38,228 nucleotides of DNA. It comes from Acidobacteriota bacterium. Lineage in GTDB: Bacteria; Acidobacteriota; Terriglobia; Terriglobales; Acidobacteriaceae. Made by a program: the position numbers and the translations under genes. Every line of letters starts with the position of its first letter. Within the stretch, counting starts at the first letter, position 1. The notes beneath the pieces are model-generated. The model had not been told where the DNA came from. It searched no databases and saw nothing but the letters and a program-made list of their open reading frames with translations. Shown in pieces: positions 34,561 through 38,228 of the stretch. The stretch covers positions 1-38,228 of the forward strand of contig JAGWRX010000103.1 of assembly GCA_028876395.1 (NCBI GenBank), read 5' to 3'.

Positions 34561-34965
34561 CTACGGCTTGCGCGGCTGCAGCGGCTTGTTCACCACCACC
34601 GGCTTGCGCAGCGGCACAATGGCTCCCGCCGAGCCGGGCGCGGCCTGGTGGAAGCGCGAAAGCATCTCAGAGCGCACGTACTCCACAAAGCTCTGCATCT
34701 GCCGGTTCATCTCTTCCATGCGCTCGCGCATCTGCAGGATGATGGCGATGCCGGCGATGTTCACGCCCAGGTCGCGGGCCAGGTTGAGGATGAACTCCAG
34801 CCGCTCCAGATCCTCGTCGGTGTAGAGGCGCGTGTTGCCCTCGGTGCGCGACGGCTTCAGCAGGCCCTCGCGCTCATACAGGCGCAGCGTCTGCGGGTGA
34901 ATCTCGTACATCTCGGCCACCGCCGAGATCATGTACGCGCCTTTGGACTTGCGTTTTGCGGCCAT
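34561..34965 (-). CDS. hspR: MerR-family heat shock regulator HspR
   Basis: YMISAVAEMYEIHPQTLRLYEREGLLKPSRTEGNTRLYTDEDLERLEFI; follows dnaJ. Confidence 0.93.
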   Translation of the reverse strand: MAAKRKSKGAYMISAVAEMYEIHPQTLRLYEREGLLKPSRTEGNTRLYTDEDLERLEFILNLARDLGVNIAGIAIILQMRERMEEMNRQMQSFVEYVRSEMLSRFHQAAPGSAGAIVPLRKPVVVNKPLQPRKP

Positions 34966-34998: not shown

Positions 34999-36174
34999 TT
35001 ACAGCTTGTCAAACAACGCCACGCGCGGGTCTTGCGGATTGAGCTTCGCCAGCTCGCGCATGATTTCGCGACTGCGCTCGTCCTGCAGCGCGGGCACCGT
35101 CACCTCGACGGTCACAATCTGGTCGCCGCGCTGGCCGGGACGCTGCGCGTTCTCCACGCCGCGCTCGCGCATGCGCAACTTTTGGCCGCTCTGCGTGCCC
35201 GGTGGAATCTTCAACTGCGCGCGGCCATCGATGGTGGGCACGTCCACCTTGGCACCCAGCGAGGCCTCGGGCACCGTCACCGGCACCGTCACGTGAATGT
35301 CGTCGCCGAGGCGCGTGAACACCGGATGCGAGCCGGTGCGCACAATCACGAACAGGTCGCCGGGCGCGCCGCCGTTCAAGCCCGCGTTGCCCTTGCCCTG
35401 GAGGCGGATACGCTGTCCGTCGCGCGTGCCGGCCTTGATGCGAAACTCCACTGTCTCCGTGCGGCTGACCAGCCCTTCGCCGTGGCATGTGCCGCAGGCG
35501 TTCGAGGTGCGGCCGGTGCCGTTGCAGCGCGGGCAGGGGATGTTGAACTTCATGCGCCCGCCCATCTGCGTCACCTGGCCGGTGCCGTTGCACTCCGGGC
35601 ACGACATGGGCCCGCCGGTCTGCGCGTGGCCGTGGCAGGTTGGGCAGGTCTCCTGGCGATGCACCTGCATGCGCGCCTGACCGCCGCGAATCGCGGTCCA
35701 GAAATCGACGGTGGCCTGGTATTCGAGATCCGTGCCGGGCTGCGGACCGCGCGGGCGGTGCGGCTGCTGCGCGCCGGAGAAGATGCCGGAGAAGATGTCT
35801 TTGAAGCTGCCCCAGCCCGCCGAACCCGCGCCCGCCTGCGGCGCACCGCCCTGAAAGCCGGAGAAGTCGAAGCCGCCAAAGTCCACCGGCGGCTGCCCGC
35901 CCTGCTGCCGCGCATAAGCCTCGGCCTGCGCCGGATCAATCTGGTCGGAGTAGAAGCCGAGCTGGTCATAGACCTTGCGCTTCTTCTCGTCGCTTAAAAC
36001 GTCGTTGGCCTCGGAGATCTCCTTGAACTTCTCCTCGGCGCGCTTGTCACCGGGATTCACGTCAGGGTGATATTTGCGCGCAGCCTTGCGGAAGGCCTTG
36101 CGAATCTCCTCCGGCGTGGCCGTCTTCTTCACGCCAAGCGTCGCGTAATAGTCCTTGTTCTGGGTCGTGGCCAT
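34999..36174 (-). CDS. dnaJ: Chaperone protein DnaJ
   Basis: J domain with [24 protein letters not shown], four CxxCxG zinc repeats, C-terminal domain. Confidence 0.96.
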
Positions 36175-36198: not shown

Positions 36199-36654
36199 CT
36201 ACTTGCTGGCGGGAACTCTCAACCCGCCCGTCTTTCGATTCGTTGGATGCATGGGTACTTCCCTGCGAATCCTCGGCCAGTCCCGCATCGCCGTTTCAAG
36301 TTCATAGCCCTTCTGCAAATTCATCCAAAACTGCGGTGACATGCGGAAGTACCGCGCCAGCCGCAAGCACAAATCGGCGTCGAGGCTGCGTTGTTCCTTT
36401 ACGATAGCAACCACGCGCCGCTCCGGCACCTTGATTTCATCGGCGAGCATCCGCGGTGTCATCTGAAGCGGGATAAGGAAATCCTCGCGGAGGAATTCGC
36501 CGGGGTGGAACCCTGCGGCTTGCCGATTTGCACTGCGCGAATTTGAGGCGAAAAGAGGCGTATTCTTCGTCTTCTGCGCAATATGGACGGCATCTCTCAA
36601 TCCTCGCTGGATACTCTCCGCGAGACTCCCTTTCGGTTTGTTTCGACTTCTCAT
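36199..36654 (-). CDS. HigA-like XRE antitoxin-family protein with ~48-aa N-terminal extension
   Basis: FHPGEFLREDFLIPLQMTPRMLADEIKVPERRVVAIVKEQRSLDADLCLRLARYFRMSPQFWMNLQKGYELETA. Confidence 0.88.
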   Translation of the reverse strand: MRSRNKPKGSLAESIQRGLRDAVHIAQKTKNTPLFASNSRSANRQAAGFHPGEFLREDFLIPLQMTPRMLADEIKVPERRVVAIVKEQRSLDADLCLRLARYFRMSPQFWMNLQKGYELETAMRDWPRIRREVPMHPTNRKTGGLRVPASK

Positions 36655-36668
36655 TTAGTTCACCGCCT

Positions 36669-37445
36669 CTAAAACTTGATTCGCTCGTAAAATGCCTTTC
36701 CGTCGGCCAGCAGGGCGAACGGCTCTCTGCCCGGCGAATTCGTAGTATCTGCTGGCGGAACGGCAATTATGAAGCCAAAGGCAGCGAGCCTTGATAGCGA
36801 ACCCTTCAGCCTTACAAAATCTGACCTTGTCTGCTGCATGGCAATACCTTCCTCAAACCCAGATCGCTGCCAATCTCGTCTGACATTGTCAAACCATTGC
36901 GTAGGCCATTGCTCCGCATCTGAGAGAAACTCCGATTGGCGTGAGTATATGAAAGCCAGCGCCTTAATATCTCTCTCCTTCAGTTCAACCGCCGCCCGCA
37001 TCATGTCGTCGAGGCTCTCTGGCTCAAGGTCGCCTTCCTTAACACCGTTCGCGATGATGTGCGCGAGTCTCTTCAGTCGGCTATCCACATTAGTCCGCGT
37101 AATGTGTAACGTGGCGTTTGCGACAGCTGCGCTGAACTCCGGCGATTCGATGCGTTGATCTAACCGCCCTTTCAGCTCTTCATAAAGTCGATAGAGGCGC
37201 CGAATGTCATCGAGCAGGGCGTCCCCGAAGTAGATGAGATTACCTTCATCCTTGTTGACGGCGAGGTTCTTGAGTGCGCAGAGAAATCCAATTCCGTTCG
37301 AAGCTCCAGTAAACCCAACCGCTTCTAGAACCATTCCGCCAAGGTTCGCGACTTTATCTACGACGCCATCAACCGGGGACGACGAAGTGCTCTCGCTCTT
37401 GAGGCGTGCAAGTGCTGCTTCGGTTGGCGAATCGATCTCTCCCAT
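36669..37445 (-). CDS. Hypothetical accessory protein (~259 aa), possibly Abi/DUF4393-like; alternative GTG start at 37460
   Basis: MGEIDSPTEAALARLKSESTSS...SRLKRLAHIIANGVKEGDLEPESLDDMMRAAVELKERDIKALAFIY; 14-nt gap to HigA-like gene. Confidence 0.75.
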   Translation of the reverse strand: MGEIDSPTEAALARLKSESTSSSPVDGVVDKVANLGGMVLEAVGFTGASNGIGFLCALKNLAVNKDEGNLIYFGDALLDDIRRLYRLYEELKGRLDQRIESPEFSAAVANATLHITRTNVDSRLKRLAHIIANGVKEGDLEPESLDDMMRAAVELKERDIKALAFIYSRQSEFLSDAEQWPTQWFDNVRRDWQRSGFEEGIAMQQTRSDFVRLKGSLSRLAAFGFIIAVPPADTTNSPGREPFALLADGKAFYERIKF

Positions 37446-37478
37446 CTTCGCCCTTTCCACCTCTGTCTTTCAGCAACT

Positions 37479-37557: not shown

Positions 37558-38228
37558 CTATTTCTTTTCGTCCACGTCCACGTATTCGGCGTCGATCACG
37601 CCTTCGTCCTTCTTGGCTTCGGTGGTCGGGCCGGCCTGTCCAGTTCCGGTGCCCTCATCCGAAGGTCCGCCCTGCGCAGCAGCGTTGGCCTTGTAGAGCA
37701 CCTCGGCCAGCTTGTGGCTGGCGTGGGTCAGCTTCTCGTGCGCGGCCTTCAAGTCGGCGGAGGAGGGCGAGCCTTCCAGCGTCTTCTTTGCGTCGGCCAG
37801 CGCGGCTTCCACCTCGGTCTTGTCCGCGGCCTGCACCTTTTCGCCGGACTCCTTCAGCATCTTGTCGATGTTGTAGACCAGCGAGTCGAGCGAGTTGCGG
37901 GCCTCGACTTCCTCGCGCTTTTCCTTGTCCTCGGCGGCGTGCGACTCGGCGTCCTTGGCCATGCGCTCCACCTCTTCCTTGCTCAGGCCCGAGCTGGAGG
38001 TGATGGTGATGCGCGTGTCCTTGCCGGTGGCGTTGTCCTTGGCCGTTACGTTGAGGATGCCGTTGGCGTCGATGTCAAAGGTCACCTCAATCTGCGGCAC
38101 GCCGCGCGGCGCCGGAGGAATCCCGGCCAGCTTGAACTTGCCCAGCGTGCGGTTCTGCGCCGCCATGGGCCGCTCGCCCTGCAGAACATGGACCTCTACC
38201 TCTGTCTGCGAATCGGCCGCAGTCGAAA
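37558..38228 (-). CDS. dnaK: DnaK C-terminal part (5' end outside window)
   Basis: [62 protein letters not shown]...[14 protein letters not shown]; open to window edge. Confidence 0.97.

Follow-up and report, generated by a model that had tools for sequence, protein, structure and literature searches.

The window analysed here, a 38,228-nucleotide stretch of DNA from a member of the Acidobacteriaceae, raises the question of what two small genes are doing inside a chaperone operon. The original prediction, made from the sequence itself, read them as an accessory cassette in which a protein of about 259 residues would be neutralised by a HigA-like antitoxin. Its account of the layout held up under ORF calling and Pfam/TIGRFAM-type matches: dnaK, the unknown ORF (hereafter ORF1), the HigA-like gene, dnaJ and hspR follow one another in that order, all on the minus strand; the two middle genes are 14 nt apart; no HigB is present in the gap; and the insert is lower in GC than its surroundings, at 53-56% against 63-70% (as fractions, 0.526-0.556 for the insert, 0.63-0.70 for dnaJ and downstream, 0.65 for dnaK). 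The unknown ORF is likewise present, with a corrected start: its homologues, which open with MGxFD or MGITGNE, most likely place it at ATG 37445 and not at GTG 37460, which gives ORF1 (MGEIDSPTEAAL...) 258 residues.

Features of the locus

34561-34965, minus strand: hspR-like gene for a MerR-type regulator (MerR_1, E=3.9e-20)
34999-36174, minus strand: dnaJ (Pfam DnaJ, and DnaJ_C with E=4e-47), the hotspot's downstream core flank
36199-36654, minus strand: HigA-like gene of type A, 151 aa (TIGR02607, E=7.5e-25), made up of an extra N-terminal stretch (residues 1-48), the HigA core and a conserved tail (residues 124-151, at 36202-36285)
36669-37445, minus strand: ORF1, 258 aa, a modular protein of an undescribed family with homologues in the genus and in other genera
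36672-36965, minus strand: C-terminal module of ORF1, residues 161-258, winged-helix-like and exchanged between lineages (identities, AU tests, AF2)
36966-37112, minus strand: conserved hinge of ORF1, residues 112-160 (RLKRLAHIIANGVKEGDLEPESLDDMMRAAVEL), the family's most conserved part, with high-confidence AF2 helices
37113-37445, minus strand: N-terminal module of ORF1, residues 1-111, a weakly hydrophobic segment and then helices
37479-37522, minus strand: strong RNA hairpin separating dnaK from the cargo, with a stem of 20 pairs, a 3-nt loop and no T run
37558-38228, minus strand: 3' end of dnaK, encoding a 222-aa DnaK C-terminus and running off the window; the hotspot's upstream core flank

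An hspR-like gene also follows dnaJ at two other loci (L017 and L019). The window has no flanking repeats of note, and an Rfam scan of it returned no known RNA element. The 115-nt interval between dnaK and ORF1 folds with an MFE z-score of -4.3, and a hairpin of exactly this pattern occurs in 21 of the 44 gaps, also where the gap is compact, so that it belongs to dnaK and not to the cargo. Roughly half of the genomes in the genus (L051, L063, L077, L085, L093, L096, L104 and others) have this hairpin (GGGTGGGC...GCCCACCC) behind dnaK, and its stem ends vary yet stay complementary (GGGCGAC/GTCGCCC versus GGGCAAC/GTTGTCC). It is possible that the hairpin is an attenuator or stabilises the 3' end of the mRNA, and it may set the ratio of dnaK to dnaJ expression. 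With so strong a hairpin between dnaK and the cargo, the tie to heat-shock control that the original prediction drew from the cassette's position is no more than possible. A consensus scan, which is a weak test in this phylum, found no sigma-70-like promoter between dnaK and ORF1.

A hotspot between dnaK and dnaJ

The survey covered the DNA that precedes dnaJ in 58 genomes of the genus and in two further family members. In genomes that have dnaK and dnaJ together, the gap between them spans 98-3725 bp; among the 41 genomes in a tree of the dnaK and dnaJ flank DNA, 15 have compact gaps (<480 bp), ORF1 is present in 10 and the remaining 16 hold different cargo, which leaves 26 of 41 loaded. Recurrent cargo falls into HigA-like (24), HigB-like (13) and RelE-like (3) clusters and a DUF433-like/DUF5615-like pair (5 each), names that, HigA excepted, rest on clustering and inspection of the sequences. 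On the flank tree, cargo state changes 18 times and the presence of ORF1 9 times, neither of them any better than shuffled labels. The nearest relative (L051) is 92% identical to the window up to the dnaK stop codon and again from dnaJ, with HigBA in between instead. Such variable cargo between conserved flanks, including different cargo between near-identical flanks, marks the dnaK-dnaJ gap of this genus as a hotspot where small accessory genes, chiefly toxin-antitoxin modules, turn over rapidly, and in the window's genome ORF1 and the HigA-like gene are its low-GC accessory cargo.

No integrase or tRNA site was seen at the gap, and cargo is probably swapped without one, through recombination in the conserved dnaK and dnaJ sequences on either side. 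The post-dnaK hairpin was considered as a dispersed repeat that might provide an insertion target, and was rejected with only two matches to its pattern in its own genome. The literature searched contained no miniature, integrase-free hotspot inside a dnaK-dnaJ operon. Outside the genus, about 20 dnaK-dnaJ gaps held no toxin-antitoxin cargo recognisable by inspection, and one gap outside the genus (L209) holds a small heat-shock protein. In five genomes of the genus (L052, L053, L055, L056 and L059) dnaK and dnaJ are on opposite strands and the operon is broken; the 3' end of dnaK faces away from dnaJ at a distance of about 4-5 kb.

ORF1 is a mosaic protein

Besides the window's genome, ORF1 is present in 14 others of the same genus, as a search across 149 related genomes showed. 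Searching the full set of 80 genus genomes with a profile returned the same 15 carriers and two distant relatives at 17% identity, and three full-length homologues were found outside the genus, in other genera of the family. No match above threshold was obtained in Pfam, NCBIfam, PADLOC or PHROG, and no homologues in plasmids or viral contigs. The 15 open homologues in the genus, together with third codon positions that diverge 2-5 times more than second positions, establish ORF1 as a real coding sequence; in close pairs 43-67% of third and 9-28% of second positions differ, indicative of purifying selection. The gene upstream is dnaK in all 13 genomes with a long enough contig, the window included. 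Downstream, dnaJ follows in 12 genomes, directly or past further cargo; in G078 it lies further along the contig on the opposite strand, in G035 other genes come after ORF1, and the G030 contig stops just past it.

A distant ORF1-like family (MMMQIDDPGSALAALNDSEDR..., 17% identity) occurs at L125 (G044), L126 (G056) and L200 (G730), the last copy being frameshifted. Near-identical copies stand at unrelated loci in different genomes, and so this family has recently been mobile; one distant relative is near ERF- and SSB-like genes, as named by inspection.

Structure prediction, proposed as a check alongside the original prediction, yielded a confident AF2 model of ORF1 (pTM 0.73), with a confident helical core and low confidence at residues 1-48, and no significant match in searches of solved structures and folds, where the best viral model reached E=0.1 (prob 0.98). 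The C-terminal module is modelled as helix-strand-strand-helix, a winged-helix topology. By hydropathy, the N-terminal module of the window's protein has no clear transmembrane segment, and peak values among the homologues are modest, mostly 1.4-1.9. The undescribed ORF1 family is therefore built of three parts: an N-terminal module that is partly hydrophobic, a helical hinge that is conserved, and a C-terminal module that is winged-helix-like and can be swapped.

The swapping is evident when the parts are compared separately. Across 105 pairs, identities in the N-terminal part and the hinge agree (Spearman 0.67), whereas those in the N- and C-terminal parts are uncorrelated (Spearman -0.06). 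Individual pairs diverge in either direction: L004 and L009 share 26% of the N part and 61% of the C part, L011 and L013 share 45% and 78%, and L012 and L013 share 76% and 32%. The window's own protein has its nearest N-terminal half in another genus (L198, 50%, against at most 32% within its own genus) and its nearest C-terminal half within the genus (L002, 64%, with an N module only 26% identical). AU tests on the N-terminal data reject the C-type groups (p=1e-35 for type iii, 2e-5 for one pair) and tests on the C-terminal data reject the N-type groups (p=2e-4 and 3e-8), p-values that are optimistic because the groups were defined after viewing the alignment and some rows are long-branched. 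The mosaic is nevertheless plain from the identity tables alone, without the AU p-values. On these comparisons, the two halves of ORF1 on either side of the conserved hinge are exchanged independently of each other, and recurrent exchange of the C module around a fixed hinge fits specificity modules under diversifying selection.

Defence neighbours of ORF1 relatives

The three full-length relatives outside the genus provide a view of the family away from the chaperone operon. In G424 the homologue lies upstream of genes for SIR2 and HerA, and a TrwC relaxase is encoded close by. In G696 it opens a tight run of three genes, of which the last encodes a HamB-like (Hachiman-like) helicase and the middle one, at the HamA position, has no recognised domain; GajA and GajB (Gabija) are on the other side. 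The G661 homologue (L198) is flanked by a cupin/JmjC-type gene and an unrelated gene, with no known defence system adjoining. Two of the three therefore reside in defence loci, and judging from such neighbourhoods the ORF1 family is probably involved in defence. Counted against this are the small number of full-length relatives outside the genus (three, one of them away from any recognised defence system), the lack of a significant structural match, the modest hydropathy, and the position of ORF1 within the genus, behind a chaperone gene and not in a classical defence island. Established defence systems were seen only beside the relatives in other genera, while the cargo of the gap consists of HigBA, DUF433/DUF5615-like pairs and other small genes.

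That position could also mean that ORF1 is a co-chaperone or heat-shock accessory of the DnaK system, as it lies behind dnaK in the genus wherever the upstream gene is visible, and DnaK is known to bind the HigB-family toxin GraT and to promote its toxicity (PMC7918210). However, an accessory of this kind would have to be reconciled with a gene present in only 15 of 80 genomes that evolves fast and as a mosaic, with relatives in other genera that sit beside defence genes and away from dnaK, and with unrelated cargo that occupies the same gap; we regard it as very unlikely.

The original prediction had also seen a likeness to Abi-alpha/DUF4393 proteins in the second half of ORF1. Abi-alpha (DUF4393, PF14337) is an abortive-infection protein of Enterococcus faecalis prophage 6 that causes premature lysis of phage-infected E. 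faecalis (PMC6356687). The two profiles are collinear by hhalign, with E=0.052 at first and 0.015 once sequences had been added (reported probability 1-3%), and the likeness stays marginal: none of the 15 ORF1 members reaches the PF14337 cut-off, the best of them giving E=0.058 and the window's protein no match. The two proteins are of similar length (272 versus 258 aa) and share, besides the weak collinear match of their second halves, a similar helical stretch as well as an 'LGLI ... G..F' end at the C-terminus; in contrast, Abi-alpha has no counterpart to the DDMMR hinge of ORF1 and is a prophage gene, whereas the ORF1 family is seen in a chaperone operon and in defence loci. We take the link as suggestive and marginal and do not class ORF1 as an Abi-alpha member, although its mode of action may be similar. 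PF14337-like matches are common in the genus, at L139 (G000:C54:69633-70202) and about 50 other places, and many of them lie in the C-terminal half of longer proteins (350-400 aa) that look like PilZ in their N-terminal part.

The HigA-like partner

The HigA-like protein scores above the TIGR02607 cut-off (86.6 bits versus 47.7) and below that of Pfam HTH_3 (19.7 versus 23); its AF2 model is of low confidence (pTM 0.29). HigA genes of the gap form three classes, and that of the window belongs to type A, which stands apart from every other HigA gene, the score falling from 220 to 116 bits. Type A occurs 8 times in the 80 genomes, always in the dnaK-dnaJ gap, with a conserved 28-residue tail in 8/8 and the N-terminal extension in half. 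The short N-terminal stretch MSKxGxxIIRGLxxAxAxAxGTxDxxxYVVH heads varied antitoxin-like genes of the gap (L057, L008, L089, L004 and L014): type A HigA, a TIGR02574-like protein and a fragment of an XRE gene. It looks as though antitoxin genes had been pieced together.

Recurrence of the pair, on which the original prediction hung, is borne out within the genus. Seven of the eight type A genes come after ORF1, in seven genomes and always between dnaK and dnaJ (Fisher p=1.5e-5, a statistic that ignores phylogeny), and none has a HigB beside it; the pair is thus real as a recurrent arrangement. The one type A gene without ORF1, in L079, has no degraded copy of it in front. Tight spacing in toxin-antitoxin order, as in higBA, invites the view that ORF1 is a non-canonical toxin that the HigA-like protein neutralises, and the recurrence and the missing HigB neighbour accord with it. 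The comparison does not support an obligate antitoxin. Eight of the 15 ORF1 genes are without type A HigA, at least one of them standing alone before dnaJ (L003) and others preceding HigBA or DUF433/DUF5615-like modules; the relatives in other genera have no adjoining HigA; and the similarity of the HigA proteins is uncorrelated with that of either ORF1 half (7 pairs, low power). A strict toxin-antitoxin pair is therefore not supported, and a two-component system is possible, not favoured by the evidence at hand and, in our estimate, distinctly unlikely.

At the other extreme, the two genes might be unrelated passengers, the HigA-like gene an orphan antitoxin of a decayed module and ORF1 an independent arrival, with only the insertion site in common. 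The combinatorial cargo of the gap, in which HigBA, lone HigA, DUF433/DUF5615-like and RelE-like genes appear in many orders, is what one would expect, and the N-terminal extension of the HigA resembles the start of other antitoxin-like gap genes (L004, L014), consistent with assembly from fragments. Yet type A HigA is kept in eight genomes with its tail and invariant residues intact, and it follows ORF1 more often than a common location alone would suggest. We consider passengers somewhat unlikely, and a regulator or loosely coupled antitoxin to suit the HigA-like protein better than a tightly co-adapted antitoxin.

A working model

The explanation we prefer, in which we place about as much belief as doubt, is that ORF1 is a putative rapidly diversifying defence-type protein that often travels with a HigA-like regulator or antitoxin as cargo of the hotspot. 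ORF1 would be an abortive-infection-like protein, its exchanged C-terminal module sensing a phage- or host-derived trigger and its N-terminal half acting, possibly at the membrane. The HigA-like protein would be its partner often, though not irreplaceably; most likely it binds DNA as an autorepressor and so silences the cassette, and possibly it is an antitoxin as well. That many of the surveyed genomes are metagenome bins counts against this explanation. Compared with the cassette as originally conceived, accessory cargo and recurrence stand and the obligate antitoxin is not supported, while the turnover of the hotspot and the mosaic of ORF1 lay beyond its view.

Comparison with known systems

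Known kinds already include defence hotspots, toxin-antitoxin islands and immune proteins that swap domains. The window resembles HigBA/GraTA in having a HigA-family protein downstream of another small gene, and canonical HigBA occupies the same gap in sister species. It differs in that a RelE-fold HigB, which would define HigBA, is not found in the gap, the partner being a 258-aa modular protein, and in the conserved tail and extra N-terminal stretch of its HigA.

A second comparison is with TAC systems and their SecB-like chaperone (PMC5105189, PMC6377645), which share with the window a C-terminally extended antitoxin beside a chaperone gene, except that here the chaperones are the housekeeping DnaK and DnaJ, with neither SecB nor HigB. 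The C-terminal extension of TAC antitoxins makes them dependent on SecB (PMC5105189), and by analogy we hypothesize that the HigA tail might confer dependence on DnaK/DnaJ. One can go further and imagine a chaperone-coupled cassette, a modular abortive-infection protein with a swapped C-terminal sensor, restrained by a tailed, DnaK/DnaJ-dependent HigA, such that titration of the chaperones by phage infection or heat shock would free the effector. We rate this as highly unlikely; if true, it would be a DnaK/DnaJ counterpart of SecB-dependent TAC without a RelE-fold toxin. Should the HigA-like gene depend on DnaK/DnaJ, chaperone addiction would extend from SecB to the main Hsp70 system, and the DnaK-promoted toxicity of GraT (PMC7918210) already hints at a link between Hsp70 and such modules.

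A third comparison, for the locus as a whole, is with defence-system hotspots flanked by core genes (PMC10121019, PMC10250203), with which it shares fixed core flanks, variable small cargo and rapid turnover. It differs from them in being very small (0.1-3.7 kb), toxin-antitoxin-rich and situated in a chaperone operon. ORF1 can serve as the marker of a new family, and its mosaic C-termini suggest specificity determinants that are swappable.
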